A stretch of DNA of 64,000 nt from an uncultured bacterium (lineage in GTDB: Bacteria; Bacillota_I; Bacilli_A; RFN20; CAG-826). Below the pieces are notes generated by a model. It saw only the letters and a list, made by a program, of their open reading frames with translations, was not told the DNA's origin and did not search any database. This document shows positions 21,001-58,394 of this stretch, piece after piece (positions within the stretch are counted from its first letter, which is position 1; every line of letters begins with the position of its first letter). Where the stretch lies: NCBI GenBank assembly GCA_949283025.1, contig CASDRB010000004.1, positions 62,001 to 126,000 on the forward strand, in the 5' to 3' direction. A program made the translations under genes and the position numbers.

Positions 21001-21579
21001 ATGAAAAAAGGCTTATTAATCATTCTTAGCGGACCAAGTGGGGTTGGCAAGGGCACTATTCGAAAAAAAATTTTTCAAAATGAGTCGTTGAACCTTGTTT
21101 ATTCGATTTCTATGACCACTCGTCAACCACGAAAAAAGGAAATTCCAAATGTTGATTATTTTTTTGTGAGCAAAGAAGAATTTGAAAAATCAATAGCTAA
21201 CGATAACTTTTTGGAATATTGTCAATTTGTTGGCAATTATTATGGCACTCCAAAAGATAAAATCGAAAAATGGCGTGAGCAAGGAAAAAATGTTTTTTTA
21301 GAAATAGAAATTAATGGTGCTTCACAAGTTATGTCAAAAATGAAAGGCGAAGATATTATTTCTATTTTTTTAATTCCTCCTTCTTTTGAAGCATTAGAAG
21401 AAAGAATTAGAAGACGAAAAACTGAATCTGAAGAAGTTATTCAAGAAAGATTGGCGAAAGCCCGTCGTGAGATGAATAAATTTAATGGATATGATTATGT
21501 TGTGGTCAATGACGATGTTAATCGTGCCGCTAATGAAATAATGTCTATCATAATTAATAAAATTGAATCAAATAAATAG
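21001..21579 (+). CDS. gmk: Guanylate kinase
   Basis: Phosphorylates GMP to GDP. P-loop GPSGVGKGTIRKKI and the GMP-binding 'SMTTRQPRKKEIPNVDYFFVS' are clear; 192 aa is normal. It heads a long forward operon (gmk-priA and onward), as in many Bacillota. The leader is about ten nucleotides and lacks a ribosome binding site. Confidence 0.96.
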   Translation: MKKGLLIILSGPSGVGKGTIRKKIFQNESLNLVYSISMTTRQPRKKEIPNVDYFFVSKEEFEKSIANDNFLEYCQFVGNYYGTPKDKIEKWREQGKNVFLEIEINGASQVMSKMKGEDIISIFLIPPSFEALEERIRRRKTESEEVIQERLAKARREMNKFNGYDYVVVNDDVNRAANEIMSIIINKIESNK

Positions 21580-21581
21580 TT

Positions 21582-23783
21582 ATGGGTATTAGAATTGTTG
21601 AACTTTTAATTGAATATTCTACTCTTAGTTTAAATCGCCCATTTACCTACATATATTTAAAAGATAAATTAATTGATCGCGGTTTTCGTGTTTTAGTCGA
21701 ATTTAACAACCGAAAAATTGTCGGTTATGTTTTAAAAGTCGAAGCAACTAATAAAACCAAAGAACAATTACAAGAAGATTATGGTTTTAAAATAAATGAG
21801 ATTATCGATGTGATAGACAACGCTTCTCTTTTAGATGATAATCTATTAGAATTAGCTGACATAATAAGCAATTATTATCTTGCTCCAAAAATTGCTGTTT
21901 TGCAAGCTATGCTTCCTCCATCATTAAGGCCTGCTAAATCCTTTTTTAAAGCTCCTAAAATTGCTTATGATCAATATTTGATTGTTAAAGACATTAATGA
22001 AGAAGGACTCAGCCCTAAACAAATCGAAATATTGCGTTTCATTGCTGGCGAAGAAAAAGTATTAAAAAAAGAGATAAAATCGATATCTGTTGTTAAAAAG
22101 TTGTTGGATTTAGGCAAACTTGATATTGTTTATAAAGAAAAAAATAGACTTGAATTACCTAGTTTTGAATATAGTGAACCAAAAATTTTAAATAACGAAC
22201 AAAAGAAAGTTGTTCAACAATTTTTATCAAGCGATGAACAAGTATATTTATTACAAGGGGTGACTGGGTCAGGAAAAACCGAAGTATACTTGCATATATG
22301 TGATGAGTATTTAAAACAAAATAAAACAATTTTAATGCTAGTTCCAGAAATATCTTTAACCCCAATAATGAGCGAAAACTTTATAAGACGTTTCAAAGGA
22401 CAAGTGGCCATTTTGCATTCAGAATTAACTCCTGCTGAAAAATATGATGAGTATCGACGAATAGCACGAGGCGAAGCCAAAGTAGTAGTGGGTGTAAGAA
22501 GCGCTATTTTTGCTCCATTAAAAGATATAGGTGTTATCATATTAGATGAGGAGCATACAGAATCTTATAAACAAGACACGACCCCGTTTTATCATGCTCG
22601 TGAGGTCGCTATTTTTAGAGCAAAGCAATACGGGGCAAAAGTGTTGTTAGGTTCCGCTACTCCCTCGTTAGAATCAAGAGCTAGAGCGCAAAAAGGTATT
22701 TATCATTTTTTGCGTTTAGACAAAAGAATAAATGAACAAATTTTGCCTTTAACTACTGTCGTCAACATGCTTGATTATCATAATATTGATCGAGATTCAT
22801 ATATCTTTTCTAAAAAATTAAGAGAAGAAATACAACTATGTTTATCAAAAAAAGAGCAAATTATTTTATTGATTAATCGACGAGGTTTTTCCACGTCGAT
22901 TTCTTGTCGAAAATGCGGTCATGTTTTTAAATGTCCTAATTGCGGCATTGCTTTAACCTACCATCAAAAGGATAATATGTTAAAATGCCATCATTGCAAC
23001 TATATGGAACTGATGAGCGATGAATGCCCAGAATGTGGATCGACGCAATTTTTAAAAACTGGTTTTGGCACCGAAAGAATCGATGATGAAATTCATCGAT
23101 TATTTCCCGATGCTAAAACTTTAAGATTGGATTCTGATACAGCAAAAATTAGAACTAAAATTCAATCGACTGTAGAGGCGTTTAGACAACACAAAGCCGA
23201 CATATTAATTGGAACACAAATGATTGCTAAAGGCCATGATTTCCCTAATGTCACATTAGTAGGTATCGTTTTGGCAGATATTGGTTTAACTATGCCTAAT
23301 TATCGAAGTGCTGAACGAGTTTTTCAATTGATTACGCAAGCGATAGGGCGCTCTGGTAGAGGCGATAAAAAAGGGAGGGCTATAATTCAGACATACACAC
23401 CATCTCATTATGCTATTACTATGGCGGCAAGACAAAATTATGATTTATTTTATAAGCAGGAAATGCAAATTAGAAAATCACAATATTACCCACCATATTG
23501 CTTTATGGCTTCGATTAATATTTCTAGTGCAAATGAAGAAATATGTATTGAAACTGCCTATACTTGCGCAATGGATTTAAAACAACAATTTTCAAACGAA
23601 GGTGAAATTATAGGACCCAGCGCCCCATATATTAGTTTTTTAAATGGCAAATATACAAGAGTTATACTTATAAAGTATAAAAATAATGAATTAGCCATGA
23701 ATATTTTTAAGAAAGTTATTGAATCAACATCTCACAAATCACAGATCAAAGTGGAATTAAAAATTGACCCATATGATTTTTAA
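21582..23783 (+). CDS. priA: Primosomal replication-restart helicase PriA
   Basis: A 733-aa superfamily 2 helicase that reloads the replisome at stalled forks. Walker A GVTGSGKTEVYL, Walker B DEEH and 'QAIGRSGRGDKKG' (motif VI) are present. Paired zinc sites: CRKCGHVFKCPNCG and CHHCNY...CPECGS. The N-terminal DNA-binding domain is also present. Starts 2 nt after gmk. Operon order follows the usual gmk-priA cluster, but no methionyl-tRNA formyltransferase gene follows. Confidence 0.96.
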   Translation: MGIRIVELLIEYSTLSLNRPFTYIYLKDKLIDRGFRVLVEFNNRKIVGYVLKVEATNKTKEQLQEDYGFKINEIIDVIDNASLLDDNLLELADIISNYYLAPKIAVLQAMLPPSLRPAKSFFKAPKIAYDQYLIVKDINEEGLSPKQIEILRFIAGEEKVLKKEIKSISVVKKLLDLGKLDIVYKEKNRLELPSFEYSEPKILNNEQKKVVQQFLSSDEQVYLLQGVTGSGKTEVYLHICDEYLKQNKTILMLVPEISLTPIMSENFIRRFKGQVAILHSELTPAEKYDEYRRIARGEAKVVVGVRSAIFAPLKDIGVIILDEEHTESYKQDTTPFYHAREVAIFRAKQYGAKVLLGSATPSLESRARAQKGIYHFLRLDKRINEQILPLTTVVNMLDYHNIDRDSYIFSKKLREEIQLCLSKKEQIILLINRRGFSTSISCRKCGHVFKCPNCGIALTYHQKDNMLKCHHCNYMELMSDECPECGSTQFLKTGFGTERIDDEIHRLFPDAKTLRLDSDTAKIRTKIQSTVEAFRQHKADILIGTQMIAKGHDFPNVTLVGIVLADIGLTMPNYRSAERVFQLITQAIGRSGRGDKKGRAIIQTYTPSHYAITMAARQNYDLFYKQEMQIRKSQYYPPYCFMASINISSANEEICIETAYTCAMDLKQQFSNEGEIIGPSAPYISFLNGKYTRVILIKYKNNELAMNIFKKVIESTSHKSQIKVELKIDPYDF

Positions 23784-37039: not shown

Positions 37040-37828
37040 ATGAATTTATTAGTGGATATAGGCAATACCACGATTGGGATTGCACTATATGAACAGCATG
37101 TATTCATAAAAAAGTTTATTGTATCTAGCGAGGTCGATAAAGCTGAAGATGAATACTATTTGATGTTTCAAACATTGACAAAAGATGTTGAAAAAACTGA
37201 CATTGAACACATTTTTATTTCTAGCGTTGTACCTATTTTAAATCGTAGGATAAAAAACGCATTGTTTAAGATTTTTAATTGCCAACCAATTATTTTAGGA
37301 ATGGGATTAAAAACCGGTCTATCAATTAAAATTGATAATCCTAGCGAACTAGGTTCTGATTTGGTTTGCGATGCTGTTGGTGCAATCAATAAATACGATT
37401 CTCCAATTATTATTGTCGATTTAGGGACTGCCACAAAAATTTTGGTTATTGATAAAAACAAAGCTTTCATAGGCTGTAGCATTGCTCCAGGTATTTTAAT
37501 GAGCGCTTTAGCATTGACAAACAAAGCATCACAATTACCCGATTTTGAATTGTCGTATCCCAAAAATGTAATTGGCAAAAATACATTTGAATCTTTAAAA
37601 AGTGGAGTTGTTATCGGCCATGGTGAAATGATTAAAGGAATTTGTTATCAAATCGAAAAACAATTTGATTATAAATTTATCAAAGTATTTACTGGTGGCA
37701 ATTCATATGCTGTTAAAGAATATCTTTTAAAATCTGGTTTTGTCTATGATGAAAATTTATTATTTGAAGGTCTTAATGTGATTTTAAATAAAAATATTGG
37801 TAAAGAAGGAAATAAATATGAGAAATAA
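37040..37828 (+). CDS. coaX: Type III pantothenate kinase
   Basis: A 262-aa ASKHA-fold kinase performing the first step of CoA synthesis. 'LLVDIGNTTIGIALYE' (phosphate loop), 'DLVCDAVGAINKYDSPIIIVDLGTATK' and 'GCSIAPGILMSA' match CoaX. CAGGAGG precedes the ATG. Its last codons overlap the start of the ECF-S/PepV fusion by 11 nt, so the two are translationally coupled. Confidence 0.95.
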   Translation: MNLLVDIGNTTIGIALYEQHVFIKKFIVSSEVDKAEDEYYLMFQTLTKDVEKTDIEHIFISSVVPILNRRIKNALFKIFNCQPIILGMGLKTGLSIKIDNPSELGSDLVCDAVGAINKYDSPIIIVDLGTATKILVIDKNKAFIGCSIAPGILMSALALTNKASQLPDFELSYPKNVIGKNTFESLKSGVVIGHGEMIKGICYQIEKQFDYKFIKVFTGGNSYAVKEYLLKSGFVYDENLLFEGLNVILNKNIGKEGNKYEK

Positions 37829-39794
37829 AATGATATTAAAAATGTGCATTAACGCTATGTTTATTGCATTAATTGTTATAATGACATTCGTCCCTTACGT
37901 TGGGTTTATTCCAATCCCTATTTTAGGAATTTCTATAACTATTATTCATGTTGTTGTTTTGATTGGCGCAATGATTTTTGGTTGGAAAAGCGGATTGCTT
38001 TTAGGTACCGTTTTTGGAATTTGTTCATTATTGAAAGCATTATCTTATCCAGGAACGATTGATTATTTATTTGTTAATCCTTTGGTTTCTGTTTTACCAA
38101 GATTGTTATTTGGATTATTATCTGGAATTGTTTTTGATTTAATAAGAAAAATTAAAAATCAATATAGTTTGTTTGCTTTATTTTGCATCGCAAGTGGTGC
38201 AATGACTTTCATCCATTCATTTTTAACTTTATCTTGCTTATATTTGTTTAGTTTTGATAAAGAATTGTTAATCAATAACGGAGTTACCTCATACGGGCAA
38301 TTAATCGCCGGTATATTTGCCGTCAATGCCATTTTAGAAATAGTTTTGGCCATTGTAGTTACACCAAGTTTATCTTTAGCTTTGTTTAAAGCATTCCCTG
38401 ATATAACAAGAAACCCTTTTGATTTTATAAAACAAACTTATTATGACAAAATAACCAAACCATATCGACGTGAATGCATTAATTCTTTAATTGAATTCGT
38501 CAAACATAAGTCGGTTTATGATCAAGAGACATCAGATCAAAAAAACCCTTTTGGGGTTGGGGTTTCTAACGCTTTGAATTTTATTGAAAATTTAGCAAAA
38601 AAAGATGGATTTGATGTAGTAAATTATGATAATAAAATCGTGGAAATAACATGTGGTGAAGGCGAAAAAAACATCACAATTTTAGCACATGCCGATGTCG
38701 TTCCTGCTACTGGTGAATGGACTAGCGATCCATTTGTGGTTAGAAAAGATAAAAAATATCTATATGGTCGAGGTGTTAGCGATGATAAAGGCCCGTGTTT
38801 AGCCGCTTATTATGCCATTAAGTCATTAGTTGATAATAATTTGGTTTCTGGCTATCAAATTCGCTTATTAGTTGGAGGCAACGAAGAAAGCGGTTCTTTA
38901 GGTATGAAACATTACTTTGATGTTTTACAAAAACCACAACCAACATATGGTTTTACACCAGATAGTGATTTTCCTATTATCAGAGCAGAAAAAGGAATTG
39001 TAAATTTTGTAGTTGAAGGTAAATTGCCATTAAAAGGTATCATATCTTTTCAAGGTGGTGTAGTTCCAAATGCGGTTATTGATCAATTGGAAGCCATTGT
39101 CGAAGACGAAGATTTAAAAAGTGCAATTAGAGCGGAAACATTTGATAAAACAATTGAAAATAATCACATTACAATTAAAGGAAAATCGGCTCATGGTGCT
39201 CAACCGTATTTAGGAGTTAACGCCGCCATCTTATTCTTAAATGTTTTATCAAAATATTATAATGATGGAAAACTTAGTGACTTAATATCAAAAATGGTGA
39301 CATTAACTGGTGACACCATTGGCATCGGATTTGAAAATGATGATATGGGTTCATGCAGCTTAAATTTAGGGATGATTGAATACAAAGATGAAACAATTAA
39401 ATTAATATTTAATTATCGATTTATTAATGGTGTCGATTTTGAAAAGTGCCAACATTTAATTATCGATGCTTTTAATCCGTTAAGTGTTCGTTTTGGAAAC
39501 GTATCAAGATTGTTATATTTTGCAAAAGATTCACGATTGATTCAAACATTGCTTAATGCCTATCAATTAGAAACTAGCGATTTGGTTTCTCAACCATTAG
39601 CTATTGGTGGTGGAACTTATGCAAAAGAATGCGAAAACGTCGTGGCTTTTGGCATGCAATTTCCTAATGAGGATACACATATGCATGAACCAAATGAAAT
39701 GATAAAAATTAATCATTTATACAAAGCAATGGCTATCTACGCTCATGCTATTATTGATTTAGGAAACTTGATTAAAGATGAGAACAAAATTTAA
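37818..39794 (+). CDS. Fusion of an ECF transporter S component with a PepV-type M20 dipeptidase
   Basis: One open frame of about 658 aa. Residues 1-205 form a multi-helix membrane domain ('FVPYVGFIPIPILGISITII', 'VNPLVSVLPRLLFGLLSGIV') like S components of the PanT/folate-type group, which bind vitamins for an ECF energising module. From about 215 it is a complete PepV/Sapep dipeptidase: AHADVVP (about 289), SDDKGP (319), GNEESGS (354), PDSDFP (381), KSAHGAQ (455) and HMHEPNE (620) supply the metal and catalytic residues. The peptidase would face the cytoplasm if the short linker keeps the usual S-component topology. The ATG at 37818 follows GAAGGA; overlap with coaX suggests pantothenate-related import, but the substrate is inferred. 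Confidence 0.85.
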   Translation: MRNKMILKMCINAMFIALIVIMTFVPYVGFIPIPILGISITIIHVVVLIGAMIFGWKSGLLLGTVFGICSLLKALSYPGTIDYLFVNPLVSVLPRLLFGLLSGIVFDLIRKIKNQYSLFALFCIASGAMTFIHSFLTLSCLYLFSFDKELLINNGVTSYGQLIAGIFAVNAILEIVLAIVVTPSLSLALFKAFPDITRNPFDFIKQTYYDKITKPYRRECINSLIEFVKHKSVYDQETSDQKNPFGVGVSNALNFIENLAKKDGFDVVNYDNKIVEITCGEGEKNITILAHADVVPATGEWTSDPFVVRKDKKYLYGRGVSDDKGPCLAAYYAIKSLVDNNLVSGYQIRLLVGGNEESGSLGMKHYFDVLQKPQPTYGFTPDSDFPIIRAEKGIVNFVVEGKLPLKGIISFQGGVVPNAVIDQLEAIVEDEDLKSAIRAETFDKTIENNHITIKGKSAHGAQPYLGVNAAILFLNVLSKYYNDGKLSDLISKMVTLTGDTIGIGFENDDMGSCSLNLGMIEYKDETIKLIFNYRFINGVDFEKCQHLIIDAFNPLSVRFGNVSRLLYFAKDSRLIQTLLNAYQLETSDLVSQPLAIGGGTYAKECENVVAFGMQFPNEDTHMHEPNEMIKINHLYKAMAIYAHAIIDLGNLIKDENKI

Positions 39795-39811
39795 AGATGA
39801 GAACAAAATTT
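39774..39811 (+). repeat. 19-bp tandem duplication across a stop/start junction
   Basis: AAAGATGAGAACAAAATTT occurs twice head to tail (39774-39792 and 39793-39811). The first copy encodes the last residues of the fusion protein (KDENKI, then stop); the second contains the trmB start ATG and, in another frame, its residues MRTKF. Confidence 0.9.
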
Positions 39812-40414
39812 AAACCATGGACCATTCCTTATTTACAGCAGCATAACGATATAGCGATATCTATCGATAATTTTGATGACTTTGTTTTTAAGGACTGTAT
39901 TTATTTAGAAATTGGCTGTGGAAAAGGCGATTTTATATGTCAAATGGCTCTCAAGTTTCCTGATATTCAATTTATCGGAGTTGAAAAAAATATCACGTGT
40001 GCCGGCATTAGCGCAAAAAAAATTGTTGACCAGAAAATTAAAAATGCTTTCATTATCGCTGAAGATGTTGAAAAATTATTTCCGCTTTTAAAAAAAGAAA
40101 GCATAGATGGCATTTTATTAAACTTTTCTGATCCATGGCCTAAAAAAAGGCATACAAAACGTCGTCTTACTGATACAAGATTTATTGATAATTACTATAG
40201 TATTATCAAAAAAGGTGGTATACTAAATTTTAAGACCGATAATCGCGATTTATTTGATTTTTCGGTCAAAACGTTTTCTAAATCAAAATTTTCTGTTCTT
40301 AAAATTGATGAAAATTACTCAGGTGACGATTATTTTGATGCTAAAAGCGAATATGAAACTAATTTTAGGAACCAAGGTTTGATTATTTATAAGTTATACC
40401 TTAAAAAGGAGTGA
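39797..40414 (+). CDS. trmB: tRNA (guanine-N7-)-methyltransferase
   Basis: Rossmann methyltransferase modifying G46 of tRNAs, 205 aa. 'LEIGCGKGDFICQMA' is the SAM loop, 'FIGVEKNITCAG' the acidic strand, and 'LLNFSDPWPKKRHTKRRLT' the TrmB signature. It starts 2 nt after the fusion gene, within the second copy of a 19-bp duplication. Ends in TGA. Confidence 0.95.
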   Translation: MRTKFKPWTIPYLQQHNDIAISIDNFDDFVFKDCIYLEIGCGKGDFICQMALKFPDIQFIGVEKNITCAGISAKKIVDQKIKNAFIIAEDVEKLFPLLKKESIDGILLNFSDPWPKKRHTKRRLTDTRFIDNYYSIIKKGGILNFKTDNRDLFDFSVKTFSKSKFSVLKIDENYSGDDYFDAKSEYETNFRNQGLIIYKLYLKKE

Positions 40415-40419
40415 TTTAC

Positions 40420-41466
40420 ATGTTTTTAAAAAGCGAAATTAAATTATTAGAGAATGTTTGTAATTTATGTGGTGTTTCTGGACAAGAGCATTATGTGGCT
40501 GCCTTTTTAAAAAAAGAATATGAAAAATTGGGTTTTGAACTTCTATATGATAATTTAGGTTCAATATACGCATATAAAAAATCAAAAGTCTCAAATCCAA
40601 AAAAGGTATTGATTGATGCTCACATGGATGAAATTGGACTAATGTGCATTAGCATTGATTCCAATGGATTAATTAAGGCGGCTCGCGTCGGTGGAGTTAA
40701 CGATGAGACTTTTTATGGAAATCGAGTAGTTTTAGTAACTAGGGATGGCAAAAAATTAGTTGGTGTTGGAAACATCTCAAGTTCAAATTCTTCTATAGAC
40801 GTAACTAAAATGAAGTTTGATTTTGGTTTTAAAAACGAAAAAGAAGCGTATGATGCAGGCGTTTATATTGGCGCAATGATGGTCGGTATTGGAGAGTTTG
40901 TCGTTTTAAACAACGGGCAAAGATTACTGTCCAAAGCTTTTGACGATCGCTATGGAATCACATTGGGATTAGAAATTTTAAAATTCTTCAAAAATAAAGA
41001 TTTACCTTACGATTTATATGTTGGCGGTTCTGTTCAAGAAGAAGTTGGGCTAAGAGGAGCCAAAACCATAAGCAATGTCATTAAACCTGACTTAGCCATT
41101 TGTCTTGATTGTTCGCCAGCACGTGAACTAGACGGAGACCAAGGAGCGCTTGGACAAGGAGTGCTAATTCGTTATTTTGATCGTTCGATGATTGCTTTTC
41201 CTAAGTTGTTGCAATTGCAAGAAAAGGCTTGTCAAAAGGCCAAAGTCAAGTATCAATATTTTCAATCTCCCGGCGGCACTAACGCTGGTCAAGTTCATTT
41301 ATATGGAGATGGTGTTTTAACTTTGACTCATTGTATTTGTGCTCGCAATTTACACACGCCATCAACAATCATTGATGCCGATGATTATCATGCTGCTAAG
41401 AAATCATTAATATGTTTATTGAAAATGTTGAATGATAAAACGTTTGCAAAATTAAGCAAAAATTAA
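40420..41466 (+). CDS. M42-family aminopeptidase
   Basis: Metallo-aminopeptidase of the TET/glutamyl aminopeptidase group, about 348 aa. Metal-binding motifs: 'IDAHMDEIGLM', 'SKAFDDRYGITLGLE', 'VQEEVGLRGAK', 'CLDCSPA' and a C-terminal 'HCICARNLHTPS' His. AAAAGGAG lies 8 nt before the ATG at 40420; a GTG at 40411 is less well spaced. Cytosolic peptide processing is expected, in line with the dipeptidase two genes upstream. Confidence 0.9.
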   Translation: MFLKSEIKLLENVCNLCGVSGQEHYVAAFLKKEYEKLGFELLYDNLGSIYAYKKSKVSNPKKVLIDAHMDEIGLMCISIDSNGLIKAARVGGVNDETFYGNRVVLVTRDGKKLVGVGNISSSNSSIDVTKMKFDFGFKNEKEAYDAGVYIGAMMVGIGEFVVLNNGQRLLSKAFDDRYGITLGLEILKFFKNKDLPYDLYVGGSVQEEVGLRGAKTISNVIKPDLAICLDCSPARELDGDQGALGQGVLIRYFDRSMIAFPKLLQLQEKACQKAKVKYQYFQSPGGTNAGQVHLYGDGVLTLTHCICARNLHTPSTIIDADDYHAAKKSLICLLKMLNDKTFAKLSKN

Positions 41467-56133: not shown

Positions 56134-57019
56134 TGTCAATTTAAATATCGAATCATCTCAACAAGAATTAGAAAAAATGTATGACGAAGTTGTTAATTCT
56201 CCTATAGGTATGCAAGAATTAAAAAAAATGGGCATTATGGAAGAAAAAATAAAAGACAATATTGTCAAAATTTATGATTTTGTCAAAGATATTGAATATT
56301 GCAGTAGTTGTCCTGGAGTCAAAAAATGTAAGAAAAACAATCCATTATTATGTACAAAATTGACTTATTTTAACGGATTTGTCGAACGTCAATTAGAGCC
56401 GTGCAAACATTTGCTTGAACAAGTAAAATACGAAGGTAGATTCTGTTTTAAAGACTTTGATGAAAAATTTGATACCATAAGCATTAAAGACAAAAATTTT
56501 GATTTTGGCAAAAAAAGAGCGACTATTTTTAAAGAATTTCAGTCCATTTTAAAATCAAATCAAAAAAAATGGTTGTTTTTAAGTGGCAAACCACAAACTG
56601 GCAAAACTTATCTTTCCATCGCTTTATTAAATTATGCTTTAACTTTTAAAAAAGTGGATGGGAAAATCGGTTTTATTAACACTTCGTTTCGTTTTAAAGA
56701 ATTAAACGATTATTCCTACTCAAATAAAGAAGAATTTAATTCAATGATGCAATCGTTATCTAATTGTGAAATTTTGATAATGGATGATTTTGGCAATGAA
56801 TTTAAAAACGATTTTATTAGAGACGGCATTTTATTTTCAATTTTGTCAAATCGTTCAAATAAAAAACTATTAACCATTTTTACTTCTAATTTTGATATCG
56901 ATGAAGTTGTGGAGATGTATTCTACATCAAAAGCTGGCGGAATAAGGGCAAGACAAATAGGACGAATATTAAAAGAAAATTGCTTATTATTTAATTTAGG
57001 CGAGTTATCAATTTATTAA
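56117..57019 (+). CDS. dnaI: Helicase loader DnaI
   Basis: AAA+ ATPase of about 300 aa. The N-terminal zinc region 'CSSCPGVKKCKKNNPLLC' binds the replicative helicase in the family; Walker A is 'SGKPQTGKTYLSIALL' and Walker B 'EILIMDDFGNE'. ATGs at 56111, 56117 and 56120 are possible; GGAGG at 56105-56109 best fits 56117. It ends inside the convergent mutM-coaE gene (29-nt overlap). Confidence 0.93.
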   Translation: MMEKINVNLNIESSQQELEKMYDEVVNSPIGMQELKKMGIMEEKIKDNIVKIYDFVKDIEYCSSCPGVKKCKKNNPLLCTKLTYFNGFVERQLEPCKHLLEQVKYEGRFCFKDFDEKFDTISIKDKNFDFGKKRATIFKEFQSILKSNQKKWLFLSGKPQTGKTYLSIALLNYALTFKKVDGKIGFINTSFRFKELNDYSYSNKEEFNSMMQSLSNCEILIMDDFGNEFKNDFIRDGILFSILSNRSNKKLLTIFTSNFDIDEVVEMYSTSKAGGIRARQIGRILKENCLLFNLGELSIY

Positions 57020-58394
57020 TTATTTCTTCTACATTGTTTTTTAATGATTCTAATGTGCTATCATTAAAAATGATAAAATCAGCATCTTTTTTGTTTTTCT
57101 CATAATGAGAAGTTGCGTTAATCACCTTTAAATCTTTATAAGCTATTTTGTTTCTATTGCAAAGTTGAGCATCTTTGTTTTTTGATTCAACAGCAATGAT
57201 TATATCAAAGTCATTTTCCATTTTAGCTTCATATAAAAGCGGTATTTCGACAATTCGTAAATCGCTAGTACAACTACTTAAAAAGGCATTTATTTTATTT
57301 TTAACCAAAGGATGAATATATTTTTCTAATTGAGGCTTTTTATTTAAATTATTAGCCAAATAACTTCTTAATATATTATGATCAACCACACCATTAGGGA
57401 ATGTTATATTAAACATTTGGCTGATAGCATCAACTATTTCTTTTTCTTTATACAAATTATTAACGATATCATCACATTTTATATTTTGATAGCCATGTTG
57501 ATTAAAAATATTAATTACTTCTGATTTTCCACTTCCGCTTGGACCATAAATAGCAATATTAAAAAAGGATTTTTTCAATGGTTGACAAATCGGACAATAG
57601 GTTGTACCTCTTCCATTGACTTTTATTTTTCTAAATGGATGGTGGCATATTGGACAGTCTTGCCCTTTCTTACCATAAACTTGTAGTTGAATTTGAAAAT
57701 TGCCATCAATTCCTTTACCTGGATGATAACTTTTAATAGTGGAACCTCCGGACTGAATCGCTCTTGTTAAAATTTGTTTTGAATGTTTGATTATTTGTTC
57801 GAATTCTTTTAAAGTAATGGAACTTGACTTTGTCAAAGGGTTGATTTTGCTTGCAAATAAAGTCTCGTCAACATAAATATTGCCAAGCCCACTCATCACG
57901 CTTTGATCTAATAGAAATGTTTTAATTGGAATAGATTTATTTTTTGCTTTCTTTAACAAATAATTTGGATTATCAATGTTGAACGGTTCAGGACCTAACT
58001 TAGCAATTTCTTTTTCTTTTAATAGATTATTCTCATTGCTTAATTTCATTATTCCAAAACAACGCGAATCATCATAACATAGTTTAGTTTTGTCGTTTAA
58101 ATAAAACACAACTCTAGCGTATTTTGAATCGGGTTCATCTTTTAATAATTGATAATATTTCCCCTCCATGCGAAGATGGGATAAAAAGCAGACATTATTT
58201 GATAAATGGAAAATTAAAAATTTTCCAATTCTAGTAATATCAAGTATTTGTTTATTTTTTATAGCGTTTGAAAATTCATCGTTATCTCCTAAAATAGTTG
58301 AAGGTCTTTTTATGATGACATCATCAATAACTTTGTTTTTCAAAATATGGAGAAGATTATTTTTAATCGTCTCAACTTCTGGTAATTCAGGCAT
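56991..58394 (-). CDS. mutM-coaE: Fusion of formamidopyrimidine-DNA glycosylase (MutM) and dephospho-CoA kinase (CoaE)
   Basis: One 467-aa frame. Residues 1-270 are complete MutM: PELPEVETI start (catalytic Pro2, Glu3), 'DQSVMSGLGNIYVDETLF' and the zinc finger CPICHHPF...YCPIC (about 245-268); it removes oxidised purines. From about 275 a CoaE follows: P-loop GPSGSGKSEV (about 283), 'KCDDIVNNLY', 'KYIHPLVKNKI' and 'VEIPLLYEAKMENDFDIIIAV'. It would phosphorylate dephospho-CoA. The linker is only a few residues (PLKKSFFNIAIYG) and contains no stop or second ribosome site. In many Bacillota mutM and coaE are adjacent separate genes after polA, as expected for a simple gene fusion. Confidence 0.9.
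   Translation of the reverse strand: MPELPEVETIKNNLLHILKNKVIDDVIIKRPSTILGDNDEFSNAIKNKQILDITRIGKFLIFHLSNNVCFLSHLRMEGKYYQLLKDEPDSKYARVVFYLNDKTKLCYDDSRCFGIMKLSNENNLLKEKEIAKLGPEPFNIDNPNYLLKKAKNKSIPIKTFLLDQSVMSGLGNIYVDETLFASKINPLTKSSSITLKEFEQIIKHSKQILTRAIQSGGSTIKSYHPGKGIDGNFQIQLQVYGKKGQDCPICHHPFRKIKVNGRGTTYCPICQPLKKSFFNIAIYGPSGSGKSEVINIFNQHGYQNIKCDDIVNNLYKEKEIVDAISQMFNITFPNGVVDHNILRSYLANNLNKKPQLEKYIHPLVKNKINAFLSSCTSDLRIVEIPLLYEAKMENDFDIIIAVESKNKDAQLCNRNKIAYKDLKVINATSHYEKNKKDADFIIFNDSTLESLKNNVEEIINKLITRLN

Follow-up and report, generated by a model that had tools for sequence, protein, structure and literature searches.

The window, the 64,000-nucleotide stretch of DNA analysed here, contains on its forward strand genes in the order coaX, panT-pepV fusion, trmB and M42 aminopeptidase. 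The coaX gene (37040..37828) encodes a type III pantothenate kinase, as indicated by its match to PF03309 (6.2e-55), a TIGR00671 score above cut-off and alignment to 2h3g, 3djc and 3bex. The fusion gene (37818-39794) overlaps coaX by 11 nt; it starts with ATG, and its GGA-type ribosome site sits within the 3' end of coaX. The next two ORFs (39797..40414 and 40411..41466, + strand), presumably trmB, coding for a tRNA methyltransferase, and the gene of an M42-type aminopeptidase, follow in an order that is conserved in relatives.

The fusion gene is a single open frame of 658 codons (+ strand), with no stop between the S-component and the dipeptidase halves. Residues ~1-196 (37818..38405) make up the PanT-like S-component half, delimited by PF12822, 4rfs_S, 6zg3_C, conserved columns and model helices. 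They are followed by a linker of about 11 residues (~197-207, 38406..38438; pLDDT <50 at residues 198-204) and by a PepV/Sapep-type M20 dipeptidase (residues ~208-658 plus the stop codon, 38439..39794), recognized by TIGR01887, by sequence and fold similarity to 3ki9/1lfw and by its catalytic residues. The open frame and the profiles confirm the claim of the first-pass annotation that an S domain and an M20 dipeptidase form one chain coupled to coaX by the overlap. The membrane domain had been placed at residues 1-205; the domain as such stands, but it ends near residue 196. The structure model of the whole protein (mean pLDDT 84.6, its S half based on just three full-length sequences) shows membrane helices and a peptidase modelled with confidence, whereas the linker at 198-204 is of low confidence.

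The S half matched PF12822 at residues 8-185 (1.7e-18, 67.6 bits against a cut-off of 30.7), and the only relatives found in the PDB were 4rfs_S (1.2e-20) and 6zg3_C (6.7e-19), both ECF-PanT. In the model it has six helices, with the six-helix S fold spanning residues 6-191. It carries the AXXXA motif in helix 1 (A13/A17), and it has the invariant residues R95, P88, P94, G67 and E174. In all these features, as well as in the shared ECF module and the pantothenate-family gene context, it resembles the S components of ECF-PanT from Levilactobacillus brevis (4RFS) and L. delbrueckii (6ZG3); unlike these, it is followed after helix 6 by a 450-residue enzyme. A second difference lies in the binding site. 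The pantothenate-binding residues of PanT include W64 and N131 (PMC7755397). At the positions of W64, R95 and N131 the window protein retains the arginine, whereas the other two are replaced by F66 and H133. Neither replacement alone demonstrates a new cargo, because F and H are also seen at these positions in relatives that have coaBC. Histidine at the N131 position had been promising as a marker of altered cargo on 60 loci, but failed when more CoaB+ loci were included, since N was then seen in 15 and H in 10 of 25 CoaB+ genomes.

A complete EcfA1/A2/T module, whose presence elsewhere in the genome was to be checked, was found on contig C12 (ecfA1-ecfA2-ecfT-truA), away from the fusion gene. 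A single EcfT with adjoining EcfA genes stands against five S-component matches in the genome, as would suit a module of group II that several S components share. Among these matches the S half of the fusion is the strongest and the sole PanT-like one.

These data also bear on the possibility that the S domain has lost transport and now controls the peptidase as a sensor. In the 5TMR sensor kinases an S-component fold with soluble domains at its C-terminus serves as a receptor (PMC11109136), and the window protein shares with them an S fold followed by a C-terminal, presumably cytosolic domain. However, the extra N-terminal helix H0 is not present in the S-half model, the partner is a metabolic enzyme, and the AXXXA docking motif, R95, E174 and the binding-site residues of the family are retained. 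The best and only PanT-like S component of a genome that has neither panB nor panC is very unlikely to have given up transport.

The dipeptidase half matched Peptidase_M20 at residues 289-645 (2.8e-21) and the Sapep/PepV-like model TIGR01887 at residues 219-645 (375 bits against a cut-off of 208); the PepV equivalogs NF005591 and TIGR01886 matched below their own cut-offs. Sequence matches were obtained to Sapep (3khx/3ki9) and PepV (1lfw), with ~30% identity to 1LFW and 3KI9, and the predicted fold superimposes on 3ki9/1lfw with TM values of 0.86-0.87. All metal, catalytic and substrate residues are shared with these enzymes. Ten positions with such roles were compared (H291, D293, D322, E356, E357, D382, N418, H459, R534 and H623), and none varies among the 137/137 PepVs of the order, whether free or fused, in agreement with the earlier description of the dipeptidase as intact. 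In contrast to the known members, which are free and soluble, the window enzyme would be tethered to the membrane by an N-terminal transporter subunit.

Uninterrupted fused frames were present in 20 genomes belonging to 6 genera (g1, g27, g29, g30, g31 and g33) of the family, whose members are uncultured Bacilli of gut type, and the fused proteins of these genera are 39-54% identical to the window protein. Since the architecture is identical in 20 genomes from separate assemblies, an assembly or frameshift artefact, in favour of which nothing was seen, is practically excluded. Homologues encoded as two genes in close relatives, which had been held to speak against the fusion, do occur, in genus g13 within the fused clade and in many other genera, so that this objection applies in part. 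In most relatives within the family, panT and pepV are neighbouring but separate, or the site lacks an S gene; separate but adjacent genes were seen at 55 sampled loci, and other genera have coaX-pepV with no S gene in between.

It was surprising to find, in six genera, an enzyme of 450 residues attached to a PanT-like S component whose docking motif is intact. S components normally end after helix 6, which a fold survey took as their C-terminus, and C-terminal soluble domains were argued to limit toppling in the receptor relatives (PMC11109136). In a literature search of incomplete coverage, neither an ECF S component ending in a soluble enzyme nor an S-component/peptidase fusion was found to have been described. 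The fusion is a natural experiment on the toppling model, in that it asks if toppling is still possible with a 450-residue enzyme at the C-terminus of the S component.

A tree was built from the S, PepV and CoaX columns. On it, 3 changes between fused and split are required, all forced by well-supported branches; the simplest reading is two fusions and one re-split. On the PepV plus CoaX tree, which covers all arrangements, at least 4 fused/split changes are forced, and the main fused clade also contains pepV genes that stand alone or next to another kind of S component. At the junction, 9/20 fused genes keep an in-frame start preceded by a ribosome site, compared with 21/487 start-like codons (4%) elsewhere in the same frames. 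This suggested that the junction codons are relic pepV starts, and 9 of the 20 fused relatives can, as far as sequence tells, still initiate free PepV.

Inspection of the junction of the window gene revealed no in-frame start codon, and the fused copy was the only PepV-type dipeptidase found in the window genome. Because there is no internal start, this sole copy is tied to the transporter. One could suppose that the tether just keeps the dipeptidase close to peptide importers in the membrane, the S component being both anchor and transporter, and a sole membrane-bound copy is what this would lead one to find. The free PepV start that is still possible in 9/20 fused relatives and the repeated fission on the trees count against it, and we consider it improbable as the reason for the fusion.

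Survey of 395 genomes of the class showed that S-component homologues are common. At most of the 60 class loci fetched panT directly adjoins coaX, or the order is panT-coaBC-coaX where coaBC exists, and pepV is not adjacent; in two families (f19 and f28) the order is pepV-trmB-M42-panT-coaX. These arrangements indicate that the S component is stably linked to coaX, robustly so throughout the class, and that pepV travels with trmB and M42. The pepV-trmB-M42 neighbourhood to which pepV belongs is conserved in relatives of the window genome and is the older one. The assignment of the S component to CoA metabolism made by the first-pass annotation is borne out by its position beside coaX in most families of the class.

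Searches for PanC, PanB and CoaB gave zero matches in the window genome, which is 97% complete; the same searches had matches in 9, 11 and 14 of 14 control genomes, respectively. CoaB (PF04127) was detected in 0/96 genomes of the family and in 87/395 genomes of the class. In the absence of PanC and PanB no route is known by which beta-alanine could become pantothenate, and the proposal that beta-alanyl peptides feed the CoA pathway is ruled out for this genome.

In a wider form, import would be coupled to hydrolysis, with a peptide-like or peptidyl-disulfide CoA precursor taken up and processed at the membrane by the tethered dipeptidase. Conservation of the fusion over six genera and the presence of pepV within the coaX neighbourhood in several families are in line with this; the missing coaB implies a need for a non-standard precursor, and one relative within the Sapep family, a dipeptidase acting on Cys-Gly conjugates, was matched by its model NF052477 at 225 bits, far below cut-off. 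However, PanT-coaX without adjoining pepV is found class-wide, and pepV without PanT is likewise common and lies beside coaX even inside the fused clade. Beta-alanine would be useless without panC, and the active sites of fused and free PepVs are the same at the ten positions compared. PepV-type enzymes require a free amine and a carboxylate, and pantetheine has neither. Coupling of import to hydrolysis is unlikely, and an action of the peptidase on what is imported finds no support in the arrangements just described; that it processes an unusual precursor keeps a small probability. The suggestion of a peptide-like CoA precursor divides: a cargo other than pantothenate gains weight from the missing coaB, but its hydrolysis is unsupported. 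The earlier interpretation as a whole is partly supported.

Joining of neighbouring genes is a habit of this lineage. In the window a 467-aa frame on the - strand beside polA (56991..58394; PF01149, PF06831, PF06827 and PF01121) encodes a MutM-CoaE fusion, a second neighbour fusion in the genome; CoaE is the dephospho-CoA kinase of the same CoA route. Genus g26 (L119, L120, L122 and L124) has a single frame of 567-568 aa for trmB plus the M42 aminopeptidase.

The product is probably a two-headed protein, an S component and an independent dipeptidase joined by loss of a stop between coupled neighbours. Two independent functions are favoured because the halves split and rejoin, each occurs alone, fusion leaves the active site unchanged and other neighbours have been fused in this lineage. 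The N-terminal half would be an S component that is coupled to CoaX and serves an ECF transporter of the shared type (group II); it would capture a pantothenate-family precursor of CoA and dock on the single EcfA1/A2/T module encoded elsewhere. The C-terminal half would be an ordinary cytosolic PepV/Sapep dipeptidase, held at the inner face of the membrane by the short flexible linker and cleaving dipeptides independently of the cargo. The stop would have been lost between translationally coupled neighbours (coaX-panT-pepV-trmB), and fusion would have arisen at least twice in the family and been reversed at least once. Three points count against this reading. Retention of the fusion through wide divergence (39-54% identity, six genera) suggests that it may be useful, the only PepV-type dipeptidase found in the window genome is tied to the transporter, and a soluble C-terminal domain is argued to restrict toppling in receptor relatives of S components (PMC11109136).

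With CoaB absent and CoaX, CoaD and CoaE present, the window genome fits the 'Apn' variant (PanK, CoaD and CoaE without CoaBC), to which the pantetheine shunt proposed for genomes without CoaBC belongs (PMC6593275); it is also like this variant in having no PanB or PanC. The CoaD homologue, found outside the window, matched its query at 47% over 150 residues. Bacteria with pantothenate kinase and without CoaBC are thought to need pantetheine, the importer being an open question (PMC6593275, PMC12570885). A known B5 transporter was present in only 12% of the Apn genomes described (PMC6593275), in contrast to the PanT-like S component linked to coaX here. The window has gmk (21001-21579) followed directly by priA (21582-23783). 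B. subtilis carries rpoZ and coaBC at this place; coaBC (and rpoZ), expected in Bacilli after gmk, are missing at 21579-21582.

The PAN motif of the window CoaX is GSDL, compared with the canonical hGhDR, and thus has no arginine; in the alignment 2h3g, 3djc and 3bex all have GADR. Among 106 CoaX sequences, for a few family rows of which the CoaB state was extrapolated from the family-wide absence, the arginine was present in 32/34 with CoaB but in 1/72 without (non-Arg, 2/34 and 71/72). On the tree, loss of the arginine and loss of coaB amount to 3-4 changes, with only 2-4 independent pairs, and with so few independent changes the association has no formal significance. In Mycoplasma PanK-III the same arginine, which contacts pantothenate, is replaced by Leu or Ile, also in genomes without CoaBC, and use of pantetheine has been raised as a possibility, but no tested PanK-III accepts pantetheine (PMC8721197). 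In Mycoplasma the change is described as genus-wide, with no exception made for species that have CoaBC; here it is found in other Bacilli and with a link to an S component.

Because of two unexpected findings, the absence of coaB and a CoaX without the pantothenate-binding PAN arginine, the S component may import pantetheine, not pantothenate; given the missing coaB, pantetheine is about as likely a cargo as pantothenate in the window lineage. There is an appreciable, though less than even, chance that the coaX-linked S component imports pantetheine (or its disulfide) and that CoaX acts as pantetheine kinase, with CoaD and CoaE completing the route to CoA and the dipeptidase acting on a conjugate or being carried along. 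So small an evolutionary sample (3-4 changes) keeps this idea hypothetical. The S component is a concrete candidate for a pantetheine importer, and CoaX without its arginine is one for a pantetheine kinase.

At many loci of genera g17 and g24 (L101-L110, L112 and L114) just one stop codon interrupts a frame shared by panT and pepV, which are thus one mutation short of fusion. Stop-codon readthrough was considered for these loci and dropped, since all three stop codons occur, a start follows within 3-21 nt and the locus sample favoured in-frame pairs. In several genera (L013, L053, L056, L069, L080, L081, L085 and L126) the slot between coaX and pepV is filled by a different, weakly related S component: PanT has repeatedly been displaced in place.
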